21,079 bases of DNA, taken from positions 1-21,079 of IMG/VR virus record IMGVR_UViG_3300046517_001833; one strand, written 5' to 3'. Within the stretch, counting starts at the first letter, position 1. The number at the start of each line of letters is the position of its first letter. Shown here piece after piece: positions 5,079-18,623 of the stretch. A program made the translations under genes and the position numbers. The DNA is from a virus. Below the pieces are notes generated by a model. The model was given only the letters and a program-made list of their open reading frames with translations, had not been told where the DNA came from and did no database searches.

Positions 5079-5445
5079 TTTTGACTTTTATATCACCTGT
5101 GATAATCTTTTCAAGCACTGAGATAGCATTATCTTGCTTTTCGTCTTTTTCTTCTTTGTAATCATTTCTGAAACGATTTTTCATTGTGAAAATCCAAGGG
5201 GCAGAATTAAACTTTTCGTAATTGCCTTTTATGCCGTCTTGGCCTATTTGTTCCCACAGCCGTTGGGCTTTTTGCAAGCCACATTCTATTGCTTGCTTGA
5301 ACTCAGGATGTGTGTCGCGCCACTCGTATAGCGTTGTGCGTGTTATCCCAAGCTCAGCACAAATAGCCGCGAGGCTCTCGCCGTTCGCAAGAACCTTCTC
5401 AGCTATAATACCCATCTCTTTTTTGTATTTAGTGTGCGCTACCAT
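5068..5445 (-). CDS. terS: Terminase small subunit (DNA-recognition subunit)
   Basis: This 125-aa protein would recognise the packaging site and hand DNA to TerL. A helix-turn-helix lies near residues 24-44 (SLAAICAELGITRTTLYEWR). It is followed by the segment QIGQDGIKGNYEKFNSAPWI, then FTMKNRF near 86-92, a signature I associate with small terminase and terminase-like HTH proteins. A charged tail completes the protein. Position immediately upstream of terL, with only the micro-gene between, supports the call. Length is typical for HTH-type small subunits. Confidence 0.85.
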   Translation of the reverse strand: MVAHTKYKKEMGIIAEKVLANGESLAAICAELGITRTTLYEWRDTHPEFKQAIECGLQKAQRLWEQIGQDGIKGNYEKFNSAPWIFTMKNRFRNDYKEEKDEKQDNAISVLEKIITGDIKVKNDN

Positions 5446-5861: not shown

Positions 5862-6350
5862 ATGCATATAAATGATGCTTTAAAAATTTTAGGTGTAACT
5901 GGTGAATACGATCCAGAGATTATCAAGACTGCATACAGGAAAGCATGCTCACTTTATCATCCTGATAGAAACCCAGCAGGATTAGAAATGATGAAAATGG
6001 TTAATCAAGCTTATGATGCTCTTAAAAACGAAACAGGCGAAACTAAAATAGAGGGTGATTATTCATCATACGGGGAAGACCTAAATAATGCTTTAAACGC
6101 TGTTATGGGTTTTGGATTTGACATAGAAATATGCGGTGCTTGGATATGGTTGCATGGAGATACACGACCACACAAAGAAAAACTCAAGGAATCTGGTTTC
6201 AACTGGGCACCTAAAAAGAAACTCTGGTATTTCAGACCCGCCGATTATAAATCAAAAGGAAGAGGACAGTTTTCCATGGATGATATAAGGGCCTCCCACG
6301 GAAGCGAAAAGATAACAGAAAAAGAACGCAATAAACTGAGGGCGGCATAA
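5862..6350 (+). CDS. DnaJ-domain protein (J-domain co-chaperone-like)
   Basis: This 162-aa protein has an N-terminal J-domain (residues 1-55): IIKTAYRKACSLYHPDRNP contains the invariant HPD at 33-35 that stimulates Hsp70 ATPase. There is no Gly/Phe or zinc-finger region, so it is not a full DnaJ. The C-terminal part (about 85-130) has Trp-rich segments GAWIWLHGDT and FNWAPKKKLWYFRP, an arrangement seen in phage and mobile-element J-domain proteins. It probably recruits host DnaK for replication or virion assembly. It is the first gene of a plus-strand unit and has GAGGA before its ATG. The next gene starts in its stop codon (TAATG). Confidence 0.88.
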   Translation: MHINDALKILGVTGEYDPEIIKTAYRKACSLYHPDRNPAGLEMMKMVNQAYDALKNETGETKIEGDYSSYGEDLNNALNAVMGFGFDIEICGAWIWLHGDTRPHKEKLKESGFNWAPKKKLWYFRPADYKSKGRGQFSMDDIRASHGSEKITEKERNKLRAA

Positions 6351-7003: not shown

Positions 7004-7393
7004 ATGTCAGTAGAATTTACAAACGAACAAATAGATCACATTTGTTATCAAATCGGTGAGTGGTATTTGGATTGGGAACGCAAAATGTGGGTGGATGGCA
7101 AGCCCAATCAACATTGGCTAGGTGTTGCAAAAGAACAACTTAAAGAAATGATTTGTGGTAATGAATATACCGATAACAGCGATATACTAAAAAATGAGCT
7201 ATTTAATCAAAAAGAAATAGCCAAGATTTTAGTAAACGTTATGATGCTTTTAGGCATTATCCATGGGAACATAACGGCAATTCTCGCAAGTCCTGAGCAT
7301 GAAATGAAAAGCAAGCTCGATAAATTATGGCATAAATTAGCAAAAGAAATTGGCTTAATTTTCTGCAAAGAGCCGGCTACTTCAACACCTTAA
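7004..7393 (+). CDS. 129-aa hypothetical helical protein
   Basis: I place the start at 7004 ([12 protein letters not shown]) because AAGGAAAG lies just upstream. An in-frame ATG at 6974 lacks such a site and would overlap the previous gene. The protein is mainly helical and Trp-rich at its N-terminal half ([20 protein letters not shown]). A hydrophobic helix [20 protein letters not shown] lies around residues 74-93 and could be buried or membrane-associated. The last 17 bases overlap the convergent cold-shock gene. It is the last gene of the dnaJ-led unit. No family recognised. Confidence 0.65.
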
Positions 7394-7577
7394 CTTCTTT
7401 TGCGCAAGGGCCTTTGGGTGACGTTCCGGCCGTGAATTGCACCTTTTGGCCTTCTCTTAAACATTTAAATCCATCCTCTTGAATTTCCTTGAAATACACA
7501 AAATAATCTTTGTTCTCACTCTCAATAAAACCAAATCCTTTATCCTTATTAAACCACTTTACTATTCCAGTTTGCAT
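7377..7577 (-). CDS. Cold-shock domain protein (CspA-like)
   Basis: This 66-aa protein is one OB-fold cold-shock domain of the usual length. It begins [18 protein letters not shown], with RNP1 (KGFGFI) at residues 13-18. RNP2 is unusual: YFVYF at 25-29 replaces the typical VFVHF, so the conserved RNA-stacking His is Tyr. The C-terminus [13 protein letters not shown] follows the family pattern. Such proteins bind single-stranded RNA or DNA and melt RNA structures. It is the last gene of the replication-initiator unit and converges on the dnaJ-led unit. A GGAT element lies before the start. Confidence 0.93.
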
Positions 7578-13410: not shown

Positions 13411-13573
13411 AGAAGAGTTTGCAAAGCTATACCCTCCTTATGTGGAAAATGACGATCCAATAGTTTTTGAATCGCCCATATTAATACAAAAACCCTTAGT
13501 AGACAGGATGTCGCATGAAGGAATTACGAAATTATCAGAAACAAGCAGTTCAGGAATGCTGGAACGTCCTTAA
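13403..13573 (+). CDS. 56-aa possible protein overlapping the helicase start
   Basis: The ATG lies within the end of the Tad2-like gene (AATGACTAA) and the frame runs into the helicase gene, overlapping it by 59 bases. The product begins MTKEEFAKLYPPYVENDDPI, which looks coding, while the last 20 codons are in a frame shared with the helicase and end SSGMLERP. It fills the 104-base interval that would otherwise be empty. It may be a real small gene or the remnant of one truncated by the helicase gene. Confidence 0.45.
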   Translation: MTKEEFAKLYPPYVENDDPIVFESPILIQKPLVDRMSHEGITKLSETSSSGMLERP

Positions 13574-15218
13574 AGAAACCGATGATCCGGTTTTATTAAT
13601 GGCGAGTGTGGGAGCTGGAAAAAGCCTAATGCTCGCTGATATTCTCTTAAGAATGCAAACCATAGGAAAACGAGCTTTATGTCTCGTAAATAATGCTGAA
13701 CTTGTAAGAAATAATTGTGCTACATTTAAAGAACAAGGAGGTAACGCTTCAATTTATTGTGCTGCTCTGAAAGAGAAAAATGAAAGTGCACCAATAGTTT
13801 TTGGTACCCCACAATCAATTTTAAACGGAATTAATAAAAATGAAAGAATATCTCAAATCAAATTTAATATCATTATTGTCGATGAAGCACATGGCATTAA
13901 TTATCTTGATGATCGTAGTATCTTTATGCGCATACTTCGCCATTACAAGCAAGAATATCCACAAATGCGATTGCTTGGAGCAACAGGAACAAACTTCAGA
14001 TTTAAAGGAACAGAAATTGTTGGAAATAATTGCCTCTTTAATCGACAAGTCGGAAACATTACCACCGAACAATTAATTAATGATAAATATTTAATAGATC
14101 CTATCTTCAAAATTGACCCTAAATTAGTTATAGACTTCTCAAAAGTTAAAATAAAATCAAATGGAAAGTTCGATTCTAAAGATTTAGATTTAGTAATTAG
14201 TGAGAATGCTCGTTTAACAGAACTTATCTGCAAACAAATAATTCATATTATGGAATCCCAAAGTAGATTTGGTGTGTTTATTTTTGCTACTACAAAAAAG
14301 CATGCCGATGAAATAATGACCCATTTGCCAGAAGAACAAAGCGCATTAATATTAGGTGAAACTCCACAGGATGAACGAACGAGGATTTTAAATGAAGCCC
14401 GTGAAGGAAAAATCAAATATCTGGTTAATATTGCTATTATTAGCGTGGGTGTTGATGTTCCCGCTTTTGATACTATTGCATACTTACGTCCAACAGAAAG
14501 TTTGGTTTTACTCGTGCAAACTATGGGACGTGTGCTCAGATTGTCCCCCCGCACTAATAAAACAGAAGCATTAGTATTAGACTTTGCAGGAAATATTGAG
14601 CGTCATAGTCATTGGGATAATCCAGTCTTGCTAAAAGCAGTCAGAATGACTTTAGATGAAGATAAACCTAGAGTACTTAAATGTCCAGCTTGTATGGAAC
14701 TAAATACAGAAACAGCTCGTCGTTGTATTGGAAGCATAAATAATAAACGTTGCGAATATTTTTTTGAGTGTAAGAAGTGTCCAAACGAAGAATGCGAAGC
14801 CCAGAACGATATTGCTAGTCGCCATTGTCGAGTATGTCAGCATGAATTGATAGACCCAAATGACAAATTAACTTTACCCTCAGCAACACCAGAATTAAAA
14901 GAACTTGAAGTTATTGATGCAAAATATGTAATCTCTGATTCTAGAACAGGATTTAGAATAAACTGCATGTATCGGTGTCGGGATGATAAAGGACGTACTG
15001 CGTCATTTTATGAGAGCTATACGCCCATAAGTGACAAGGCACGTCACGTCTTTTATGGACAGTTCGTTAAAAAACACTGCGAGAAGCCAAGAGATTGGTA
15101 TATACATCTTGATAAGCGAGAGAAAATGCAAGAAATGCTTCAAAATGTTAACACTCCTACATACATAATGCTTCATCAAGATGATAATGGGTATAGGATA
15201 AAAAGAAAAATTTTTTAA
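13515..15218 (+). CDS. SF2 DEAH-box helicase with C-terminal Cys cluster
   Basis: This 567-aa protein is an ATP-dependent helicase or translocase of the ResIII/UvsW-like superfamily 2 group. Motif Q/I: LRNYQKQAVQE and Walker A SVGAGKS (residues 31-37). Motif II: IIIVDEAH (DEAH 123-126). Motif III: LLGATGT (153-159). Motif IV area: FIFATTKKHADEI (254-266). Motifs V/VI: IISVGVDVPAFDT and VQTMGRVLR (333-341). A zinc-ribbon-like region near 389-440 has nine Cys, including CPAC, CKKC and CRVC. It ends the recombination operon and probably acts in branch migration or repair. AGGA precedes the ATG. Confidence 0.9.
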   Translation: MKELRNYQKQAVQECWNVLKETDDPVLLMASVGAGKSLMLADILLRMQTIGKRALCLVNNAELVRNNCATFKEQGGNASIYCAALKEKNESAPIVFGTPQSILNGINKNERISQIKFNIIIVDEAHGINYLDDRSIFMRILRHYKQEYPQMRLLGATGTNFRFKGTEIVGNNCLFNRQVGNITTEQLINDKYLIDPIFKIDPKLVIDFSKVKIKSNGKFDSKDLDLVISENARLTELICKQIIHIMESQSRFGVFIFATTKKHADEIMTHLPEEQSALILGETPQDERTRILNEAREGKIKYLVNIAIISVGVDVPAFDTIAYLRPTESLVLLVQTMGRVLRLSPRTNKTEALVLDFAGNIERHSHWDNPVLLKAVRMTLDEDKPRVLKCPACMELNTETARRCIGSINNKRCEYFFECKKCPNEECEAQNDIASRHCRVCQHELIDPNDKLTLPSATPELKELEVIDAKYVISDSRTGFRINCMYRCRDDKGRTASFYESYTPISDKARHVFYGQFVKKHCEKPRDWYIHLDKREKMQEMLQNVNTPTYIMLHQDDNGYRIKRKIF

Positions 15219-15299
15219 TCAATCCAGGAAGTATTGGTCAATATAAAAGTAAATGCGAAAGATGCATTTCAAATGAATAATTAATATAATAATATAGCT

Positions 15300-15830
15300 G
15301 ATTACCCATGAAGGTGAAACAGTATTCGGATTCGTTATGACGTTCCCAGCGATATTTTTCCGGTGCGCTGGTCATTTAAACCAGATAGGAATCTTGCAAT
15401 GAGTGTCACCAGTAAATTGCAGGGCGGAGCTTCCCCGTTAATCAGGGCTAAACGATTCTAGTCCGGCAGGAAAGATAAATCGTGACAGCGTGGAGAGACA
15501 CGCTCTTTTTTAGGGCTTACCGCATGAAATGATTGGGGAATCCTAGTTATTTTTATTCGTGAGGCGAAGCGGTAAGCCACCAGTCGACGAGCAATCGAAG
15601 AACGGCAAATCCATGAAAGCGTAAACTCGCTCAGGTATGGTGAGGCTATGAGATTGTGCCGGTAACAGGCTGTAGTGGTGTAAATCCCCACATTCGCCAA
15701 TAATATAAACAATTAGATTTAAATAATATGGCTCCGGCAGCGTCTTGCGCATATGATCATCAACGATGACCCTCTTGGAGCCGTCATAAATGAGATATTG
15801 AGTATTTTTACTCATGAATATGATTAAATT
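15300..15830 (+). ncRNA. Candidate large structured non-coding RNA
   Basis: The tract is GC-richer than the surrounding DNA and contains a chain of hairpins: CTGGT/ACCAG (15368-15384), TGCAAT/ATTGCA (15395-15421), AGCGTG/CACGCT (15487-15504), a perfect 10-bp stem GGCTTACCGC/GCGGTAAGCC (15514-15578) with inner hairpins, AGCG/CGCT (15618-15631), GCC/GGC (15658-15670), GTGG/CCAC (15675-15691), GGCTCC/GGAGCC (15730-15782) enclosing TCATC-AAC-GATGA, and TGAGTA/TACTCA (15799-15814). Phages are known to carry large ornate RNAs such as GOLLD and ROOL, but I cannot match this to a named family. Strand is assumed from the helicase direction; ends are approximate. Confidence 0.5.
15487..15511 (+). terminator. 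Terminator-like hairpin within the structured tract
   Basis: AGCGTG-GAGAGA-CACGCT followed after one C by six Ts (15506-15511) has the form of an intrinsic terminator on the plus strand. It may end the recombination operon. If so, the structured tract would be two shorter RNAs; alternatively it is an internal stem. Confidence 0.5.
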
Positions 15831-15841
15831 TCTGAATATAT

Positions 15842-15874
15842 AATGTAGGCTAATCAATACTATCAGCCTACATT
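15842..15874. terminator. Hairpin after the 230-aa gene, probable terminator
   Basis: AATGTAGGCT and AGCCTACATT are perfect 10-bp arms with a 13-base loop, starting 10 bases beyond the stop of the minus-strand gene. The T-tract is poor on both sides, so termination may be weak or bidirectional. Confidence 0.55.
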
Positions 15875-15883
15875 GTTAAAATA

Positions 15884-16576
15884 CTACCCAGGGACATTTT
15901 TAGTAAAAGGATCTGGAGAACCATTGTTTCTAACATTTTCTTCATATAATTCAAGACGGCCCGCAATCTGTTCTTTAAAGAAATTAAATCTATTGTGTTT
16001 ATATAATTCCACATTAAAGACAGGTGCTTCTTCTATCCCTTGTTCAAAACGACTTAATGAACTGGACTTGCCCCATAATACAGGGTAACTATAATCTTTT
16101 TTACCATCAGCAAATAATAATGAAAATAATAAAGAAAATGGCCCACGAGCCATATTTAATAATTCTTTTATATTATATTTTTCTATAAAACGTGGATTTA
16201 TATATTCTACTGCCCCGTTCTCTTTAATAACAAAGTCTCTTTTAAATATACGCACTTTATAGTTTATCAAATCATTTAAAGTGGTTAATTTTTTATCAGA
16301 TAAATCTATTAAATCAATATCATCATCATCTGGATTAATAGCCAAATGAATGTAGTCCTCTATATTATCTTTCATAATCACAACACATAGCAATCTATGA
16401 ATCTGCTCTCTAAGAAGTAATATTTTATATTGAGTAATATAATCATTCGTATCATCTAGGGCTATTATTTCTATTTGAACGCGTTTTTCTAGTTCTAAAT
16501 ACAAACGTTGCAAATGAGTGTTCCATCGCAATTGATGATCTTCATACATGCTAGGTTGTTCTGTTTTTTTTACCAT
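15884..16576 (-). CDS. 230-aa hypothetical accessory protein
   Basis: A soluble charged protein with AAGGAAAG directly before the ATG. The N-terminal half is helical (beginning MVKKTEQPSMYEDHQLRWNT, then LQRLYLELEKRVQIEIIALD). An acidic stretch INPDDDDIDLIDLSDKK lies near residue 80-96. The segment MARGPFSLLFSLLFADGKKD near residue 143-162 is the only hydrophobic part. No catalytic motif or family recognised. It is a lone gene with its own intergenic regions, oriented against the recombination operon and divergent from a membrane protein gene. That is the setting of a phage accessory gene (moron); a lysogenic-conversion role is possible but unproven. Confidence 0.75.
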   Translation of the reverse strand: MVKKTEQPSMYEDHQLRWNTHLQRLYLELEKRVQIEIIALDDTNDYITQYKILLLREQIHRLLCVVIMKDNIEDYIHLAINPDDDDIDLIDLSDKKLTTLNDLINYKVRIFKRDFVIKENGAVEYINPRFIEKYNIKELLNMARGPFSLLFSLLFADGKKDYSYPVLWGKSSSLSRFEQGIEEAPVFNVELYKHNRFNFFKEQIAGRLELYEENVRNNGSPDPFTKNVPG

Positions 16577-17978: not shown

Positions 17979-18025
17979 GAATCAGAACTAATATGTCTTT
18001 ATGTCAAGATGTTTTGAAATAAAGA

Positions 18026-18047
18026 AGGGAGCGCTTAACGTCTCCCT
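18026..18047. terminator. Terminator between convergent genes
   Basis: AGGGAG (18026-18031) and CTCCCT (18042-18047) with a 10-base loop. On the minus strand it is followed by TCTTTATTTC, so it probably ends the minus-strand unit whose last gene stops at 18078. It could also stop plus-strand transcription less efficiently. Confidence 0.55.
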
Positions 18048-18077
18048 CAACTGTCTCCTTCATGGATGGATCAGATT

Positions 18078-18623
18078 CTATTCTTCTTCATCATCACCAA
18101 AATTATCACTTTGCTCACACATTCCATCATATTCCAAATTTTTTTTGACTTTTTTCTCTTTTTTAGCCTTGGTTTTTTTGAAAGAATTTTTGTATGTTTT
18201 CTTATCTTCCTCAGTGATAAATATGCATTCTGCAATATGATCAATACCATTGAATAAACTATCTATCCTATTTTCAAGTCGTTTAAACTCTTTATAAATC
18301 TTGCTTTGATTATCAAGCGAAATACCTTCAACAGGATCATATTTATCTTTTTTAATTGCAACTAGGGTCTCAGCATTAATACCAAAAGCTTTCATAATAT
18401 CCGAATCAGAGGCTTTTTTCTTAAGATACATACGTATTTTCTTAAGCTCATCTATCCCTGGTTCTTGATTAAAGTTCGTTCCTATTGCCTCTTGTCGCCA
18501 ATTAGAAGCTATAATTTTAGGCTCATACTTCGTAGGTTTCCAATTATCTAATGTTACTTCTTCTTTATCACTCCCATCAATACTGCATGGATCAAATTCA
18601 TAACTTGTCTCTGTTTTGCTCAT
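18078..18623 (-). CDS. 181-aa hypothetical protein, acidic and basic tails
   Basis: A GGGAGCG site precedes the ATG. The product begins MSKTETSYEFDPCSIDGSDK. The middle, LKKIRMYLKKKASDSDIMKAFGINAETLVAIKKDK (residues about 60-94), resembles a helix-turn-helix. A long helix follows (IYKEFKRLENRIDSLFNGID). Then a Lys-rich run (KKTKAKKEKKVKKN) and an acidic end GDDEEE. It is the last gene of the minus-strand unit containing endolysin. Role unknown; it could be a small virion or packaging accessory protein. Confidence 0.7.
   Translation of the reverse strand: MSKTETSYEFDPCSIDGSDKEEVTLDNWKPTKYEPKIIASNWRQEAIGTNFNQEPGIDELKKIRMYLKKKASDSDIMKAFGINAETLVAIKKDKYDPVEGISLDNQSKIYKEFKRLENRIDSLFNGIDHIAECIFITEEDKKTYKNSFKKTKAKKEKKVKKNLEYDGMCEQSDNFGDDEEE

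Follow-up and report, generated by a model that had tools for sequence, protein, structure and literature searches.

What is encoded by the roughly 500 bases that lie between the helicase gene and the convergent gene of this viral DNA: one large structured RNA, as the earlier note had suggested, or something else? The window, i.e., the whole stretch of 21,079 nt that was analyzed, is a 21-kb IMG/VR virus record with a P22-type portal. In a comparison of the helicase, vibriophages came closest among cultured phages, with 37-38% amino-acid identity. The position of the interval between an operon end, at the helicase gene, and a convergent gene was verified (Table 1). Relatives were gathered from IMG/VR contigs by a helicase search, by short conserved DNA words, and by a lineage-specific protein. 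Across these relatives the helicase gene is the constant left neighbor of the region, often with one small ORF in between, and the A2 gene forms the right border of the variable region. No DNA match was found in cultured phages and plasmids, and no relative of the helicase was found in the bacterial genomes searched. The sole match in bacterial genomes to the core of M7, one of the modules described below, turned out to be a chance 20-mer within a large ORF (L042). Elsewhere in the window, an ORF at 7377-7577 (-) resembles a small cold-shock-domain protein, and a phage ORF at 5862-6350 (+) has a DnaJ domain at its N-terminus (Pfam E 2.6e-11).

The region was confirmed to be non-coding and strongly structured on the plus strand. 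The array (15296-15786) has a GC content of 46%, compared to 36% for the window, and the higher GC content that had been noticed before was also seen locally, with values of 0.47-0.485 over 15300-15699 and of 0.25-0.40 in most of the flanking 200-bp windows. The minus strand has two ORFs (15458-15712, 84 aa; 15543-15857, 104 aa); both are interrupted by stop codons and frameshifts in relatives, and the modules differ among relatives by indels of 1, 2, and 3 nt. Therefore, the two ORFs are not genes, protein coding on the minus strand was rejected, and the claim that the interval holds no credible protein gene was upheld. The plus-strand fold of the whole region reached -150.3 kcal/mol (z -2.2; 4 of 100 shuffles were equally good), whereas the minus-strand fold was weaker in comparison with its shuffles (z -1.4). 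Two stems that had been drawn by the earlier note were present, the perfect 10-bp helix between GGCTTACCGC (15514-15523) and GCGGTAAGCC (15569-15578), and the GGCTCC/GGAGCC stem, which closes 15730-15782.

An Rfam scan of the region gave nothing at gathering score, and at E<=10 with permissive filters only chance matches were obtained (snoR124, NBR2, caiA, and similar ones, all far under the cut-off). The covariance models of GOLLD (RF02032) and ROOL, the RNAs of which the region had been reminiscent, did not match at gathering score or at E<=10, and the proposed check for a group I intron was also negative at E<=10. No match to the Rfam models of group I/II introns, known ribozymes, and riboswitches was found in the region. 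A similarity of M1 to a hammerhead ribozyme (CTGAT..GAAAC) was rejected, because the core is not conserved and because the CTG/CAG stem shows covariation, changing to CTT/AAG.

The modules of the window are listed in Table 1. M1 consists of hairpin H1, with a CTG..CAG stem plus an inner stem, and hairpin H2 with a CGTTA loop. M2 has an apical hairpin, an 8-bp helix, a further hairpin, and a 3' hairpin, and a loop pseudoknot (ACGATT/AATCGT) is possible in the further hairpin, both strands being invariant in the alignment. The last hairpin of M2 carries a T-run in the window; most M2 copies have none. M4 is closed by the perfect 10-bp stem mentioned above, which is followed by ACCA, i.e., a tRNA-type end, and its stability when folded alone was reached by 0 of 200 shuffles. 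M5 comprises a 5' hairpin with a GCAA tetraloop, a central four-helix domain, and a 3' hairpin (15675-15691) with the 7-nt T-loop TGTAAAT. M7 has a closing stem of 8-9 bp (GGCTCCGG/TTGGAGCC) and two small hairpins; its tail is GTCA in the window and TCCA or ACCA in relatives. When folded alone, neither M5 (z -0.7) nor M7 was more stable than shuffles.

Table 1. Positions of the array modules and bordering features in the window.
Feature	Position	Strand	Evidence or remark
DEAD/ResIII-type helicase gene	13515-15218	+	Pfam ResIII and Helicase_C, PHROG 16
M1, 55-nt two-hairpin leader element	15296-15350	+	covariation; model R1, 75 bits
M2, ~153-nt structured RNA	15351-15503	+	covariation; model R3, 182 bits
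M4, ~70-nt three-way junction	15513-15582	+	z -5.3; homologue in L006
M5, ~118-nt RNA	15583-15700	+	5 pairs changed on both sides, 3 sequences
M7, ~58-nt RNA	15729-15786	+	covariation; model R2, 87 bits
Convergent gene, family not assigned	15884-16576	-	right of the array
Inverted M1-type element	18024-18076	-	helicase-side M1 model
Lineage-specific gene (alignment A2)	18078-18623	-	homologues in 18 loci

Covariation is the decisive evidence for a selected RNA structure, and the proposed test on aligned homologous intervals was positive for M1, M2, M5, and M7. The strongest result was obtained for M2 (seven sequences), in which 97.6% of the cells were paired and 14 of 38 pairs had changed on both sides, including all eight pairs of the 8-bp helix. 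Six slid alignments contained 0-1 such pairs, and the value was reached by no shuffle. For M1 (nine sequences) 7 of 14 pairs had changed on both sides, compared to 0-2 in the slid controls and with 0 of 500 shuffles reaching this value. The signal was weaker for M7 (3 of 18 pairs in six sequences, 0-1 in the slid controls), because this module is so conserved. The respective pairs of M5, for which only three sequences were aligned, include the stem of the GCAA hairpin and the T-arm. Over M1, M2, and M7 a wobble asymmetry of 40 G-U versus 2 A-C cells was observed, which points to the plus strand as the RNA.

The relatives contain further units, M3 (~85 nt), M4p (~61 nt), M6 (~100 nt), and M8 (~80 nt). 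The order of the modules is constant (M1-M2-M3/M4-M5-..-M7), and their presence varies between phages. The window has M1-M2-M4-M5-M7, L004 has M1-M2-M4p-M5-tRNA-Tyr-M7, L006 has M1-M3-M4-M5-M6-M7, and L038 has M1'-M2-M4p-tRNA-like-M7. Shorter arrays are M1-M2 (L005, L041), M1-M2-M3 (L021), M2-X-M3 (L023, a contig that begins within M2), M8-M3 (L024), and M1-M7 (L018), while L032 has M1 plus other sequence and L037 has only M1, followed by an ORF. An ORF directly after the modules was also seen in L005 and L041. The tRNA-Tyr of L004, the sole canonical tRNA in the arrays, occupies a slot equivalent to that of the unit in L038, a degenerate tRNA that contains a long insert and scored 29.0 bits, exactly at the Rfam cut-off.

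The identity of the modules was compared with that of the adjoining helicase DNA. The window and L005 are 77% identical in the helicase and 99% in M2, and for the window and L004 the values are 84% and 76%. L021 and L041 share 61% in the helicase and 92% in M2, and L004 and L006 share 86% in the helicase and 98% in M5. Module identity therefore does not track that of the adjoining helicase, which fits cassette recombination together with a strong constraint on the modules. As far as sequence comparison can tell, the region was shown to be an array of separately evolving, exchangeable modules and probably not one large RNA.

Several further elements were seen in and around the hotspot. The unit X is a near-perfect hairpin of ~75 nt, which is present in the array of L023 (133-210) and, with 95% identity, at a different genome position in L006 (11278-11352, -), where it adjoins a gene for an HNH homing-type endonuclease; in L032 a related hairpin lies before M1. 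An int-alpA RNA (RF02996, 42.5 bits) was found at L006:11399-11465 (+) upstream of an HNH endonuclease ORF, and no match to a tyrosine integrase (PF00589) was found in the L006 record. Genes for ParA-type partition ATPases are located in the hotspot of L005 (8840-9472, -) and L006 (9030-9671, -), and PF00589 integrases were found in 0 of 12 records. The phages with ParA genes in the hotspot and no PF00589 integrase may be phage-plasmids.

Most modules after M2 have tRNA-like ends, i.e., TTAT followed by a GG start, a closing stem followed by NCCA, and a short AT-rich spacer. A closing stem from +1 together with a 3' NCCA was found for M4 in the window and for M3, M4p, M6, M7, and M8 in relatives. 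Exceptions are M2, which has no NCCA end, and M5, the NCCA end of which is doubtful; in addition, a proper CCA is missing from M4 in L006 and from M7 in L038, L018, and the window. A scan for GG, a stem of at least 6 bp, and NCCA at tRNA-like distances gave seven sites in 3.3 kb of arrays (2.1/kb; among them the true tRNA-Tyr and three homologous M3 copies) versus 10 sites in 240 kb elsewhere (0.042/kb), a ratio of about 50 that is descriptive because the pattern was picked after the modules had been seen. M3 forms a four-way junction, its loops being 7 nt long and its tail being CCCA, and some hairpins of M3 and M5 are capped by heptaloops that resemble T-loops (TGNAANT). In the window no tRNA was called by ARAGORN or by Rfam RF00005. 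The tRNA-like ends make it likely that the modules are cut out by RNase P.

The variable region is flanked by M1-type elements, as inverted copies recur where the convergent operon ends. They were detected with a model that had been built from helicase-side copies only. In the window the inverted M1 follows directly after the stop codon of the convergent operon's final gene, and it has an intrinsic-terminator-like H2 and a T-run. It recurs at the identical position in about ten contigs, the single scores being weak (13-21 bits). The right-hand copies resemble intrinsic terminators, whereas the left-hand copies do not and have no T-run. A weak M1 match in L044 (18 bits) lies at an unrelated place and was rejected. 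Between the stop codon of A2 and the inverted M1 another structured element was observed, a long stem of varying sequence with the conserved loop GTCGCCGNATGGTGTGC (L035 ~7516-7557, L032 ~5376-5425, L023 ~625-680, strand of the A2 gene). Judged by eye, its stem is retained through compensatory changes.

The best explanation, to which we give a probability of about 0.6, is an array of non-coding RNA cassettes, located in an accessory hotspot that two convergent operons of the phage enclose, and the RNAs would be released from the array by tRNA-type processing. We infer that the transcript of the helicase operon would read through M1 into small, independently folded RNAs, in the window M2, M4, M5, and M7. 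Host tRNA-processing enzymes would free the modules, RNase P at the 5' end and trimming to CCA at the 3' end, a proposal made because the ends of most modules after M2 resemble those of tRNA transcripts (5' TAT|GG, closing stem, NCCA). The released modules would be stable RNAs, comparable to the products of a tRNA operon in a phage. The modules are gained, lost, and swapped between phages in the manner of accessory genes.

Three other explanations were considered. One large multi-domain RNA, similar to GOLLD or ROOL, in which M1-M7 co-fold as an RNA-only complex with optional peripheral domains, would account for the constant module order and for the MFE fold of the whole region, where M1 is paired to the 3' end; ROOL and GOLLD, too, are found near phage tRNA islands (PMC12286853). 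It is nevertheless unlikely, as M1-M2 alone, M1-M7 alone, and M8-M3 exist, the modules differ in relatedness and have their own closing stems and NCCA ends, and no Rfam match was obtained. Of the likeness to these two RNAs that the earlier note had seen, the structured plus-strand phage RNA and the similar setting, with tRNA genes in relatives, stood the analysis, and the single large RNA is improbable.

About equally improbable is a role in cis, in which the hotspot would be insulated by M1 and its inverted partner, acting as terminators or antiterminator/RNA-protein sites, and the modules would be attenuators for downstream cargo genes. In the window no plus-strand gene lies between the array and the convergent gene, the left M1 copies and most M2 copies have no T-run, and M3-M7 need no gene after them; these points were set against the opposite orientation of M1 at the two borders, the terminator-like T-runs of its right-hand copies, the T-run at the last hairpin of M2 in the window, and the ORFs directly after the modules in three relatives. 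The lowest probability was given to a remnant cluster, in which M3-M7 would be decayed, functionless tRNA genes, although it would explain the CCA-like ends and the tRNA-Tyr and degenerate tRNA in equivalent slots. Long invariant stretches and compensatory changes are seen in M1, M2, M5, and M7 across phages with helicases that are 61-86% identical at the DNA level, and decay is disfavored because it would not keep invariant stretches and covariation.

For the cassette array, counter-defense is the most economical functional reading, because of associations with an abiF RNA and with tRNA-Tyr and because of the high module turnover in an accessory hotspot. In a distant phage (record G010; L039/L043) M1 (65.8 bits) lies directly after an abiF RNA (RF03085, 41 bits, above the cut-off; L043:2415-2459 (-), equal to G010:C1:25914-25958). 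In the same record no Abi_2 protein (PF07751) was found, and two further stem-closed units, one of them with a GCCA end, come after M1. Another orphan abiF RNA, which scored slightly below the cut-off (36.4 bits), is located at L045:2011-2059 (+) in the record of L040 (G011), and no Abi_2 gene was evident near it; the record of the window has no RF03085 match. The abiF RNA is an antitoxin that neutralizes AbiF in trans (PMC12373285). Like the array, abiF RNA and the type III RNA antitoxins are small structured phage RNAs, and the orphan adjoins M1 in L043, whereas M2-M7 have no repeats and no similarity to them. The abiF link is one locus plus one orphan elsewhere, and it proves nothing about M2-M7. 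A tRNA-Tyr lets T5 and T6 survive PtuAB (retron-Eco7) and Septu (PMC11555353, PMC13096335). With PADLOC no defense gene was found among the tested hotspot proteins, and none was convincing in the cargo.

It is a tentative proposal, built on these associations, that the modules blunt nuclease-type defenses of the host during infection, be it as RNA decoys, as antitoxin mimics, or as substitute tRNAs. Somewhat more doubtful still is the wider idea of an RNA counter-defense island, in which interchangeable RNAs (tRNA substitutes or mimics, antitoxin mimics) would each be directed against a different nuclease-type defense and would be tRNA-processed from one transcript. To our knowledge, the catalogue of phage counter-defense consists almost wholly of proteins, and the RNA examples known so far, i.e., tRNAs, RNA-antitoxin mimics, and RNA anti-CRISPRs, were each found singly. 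If the idea is true, a locus that swaps many unfamiliar RNA families would be a hunting ground for RNA inhibitors, just as protein anti-defense islands were for anti-CRISPRs. Even without a function in counter-defense, several structured RNA families that are absent from Rfam 15 are added, and M1 is a portable marker for finding more such arrays.

In the literature searched, i.e., open-license papers, no description of such an array was found. The array resembles ROOL and GOLLD in being phage-borne, non-coding, and highly structured, in its total length of ~500 nt, and in the adjoining tRNA genes of relatives. However, each of these is one RNA with one architecture, whereas the array has separable modules in varying combinations and no Rfam similarity. 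T4 encodes stable RNAs of unknown function among its tRNAs, and these, likened by description only, are also non-tRNA RNAs in a phage tRNA cluster; we know of no shuffling of them between phages. Phage tRNA arrays, of which the tRNA-rich region of T5 is an example, share with the array the units that start with G and end with NCCA, the short spacers, and, in L004, a tRNA-Tyr in the same slot. In contrast to them, most array units have no anticodon arm and odd junctions, and are not tRNAs. Taken together, the individual RNA families appear to be new, and the array appears to be a variant of the phage tRNA/ncRNA cluster.
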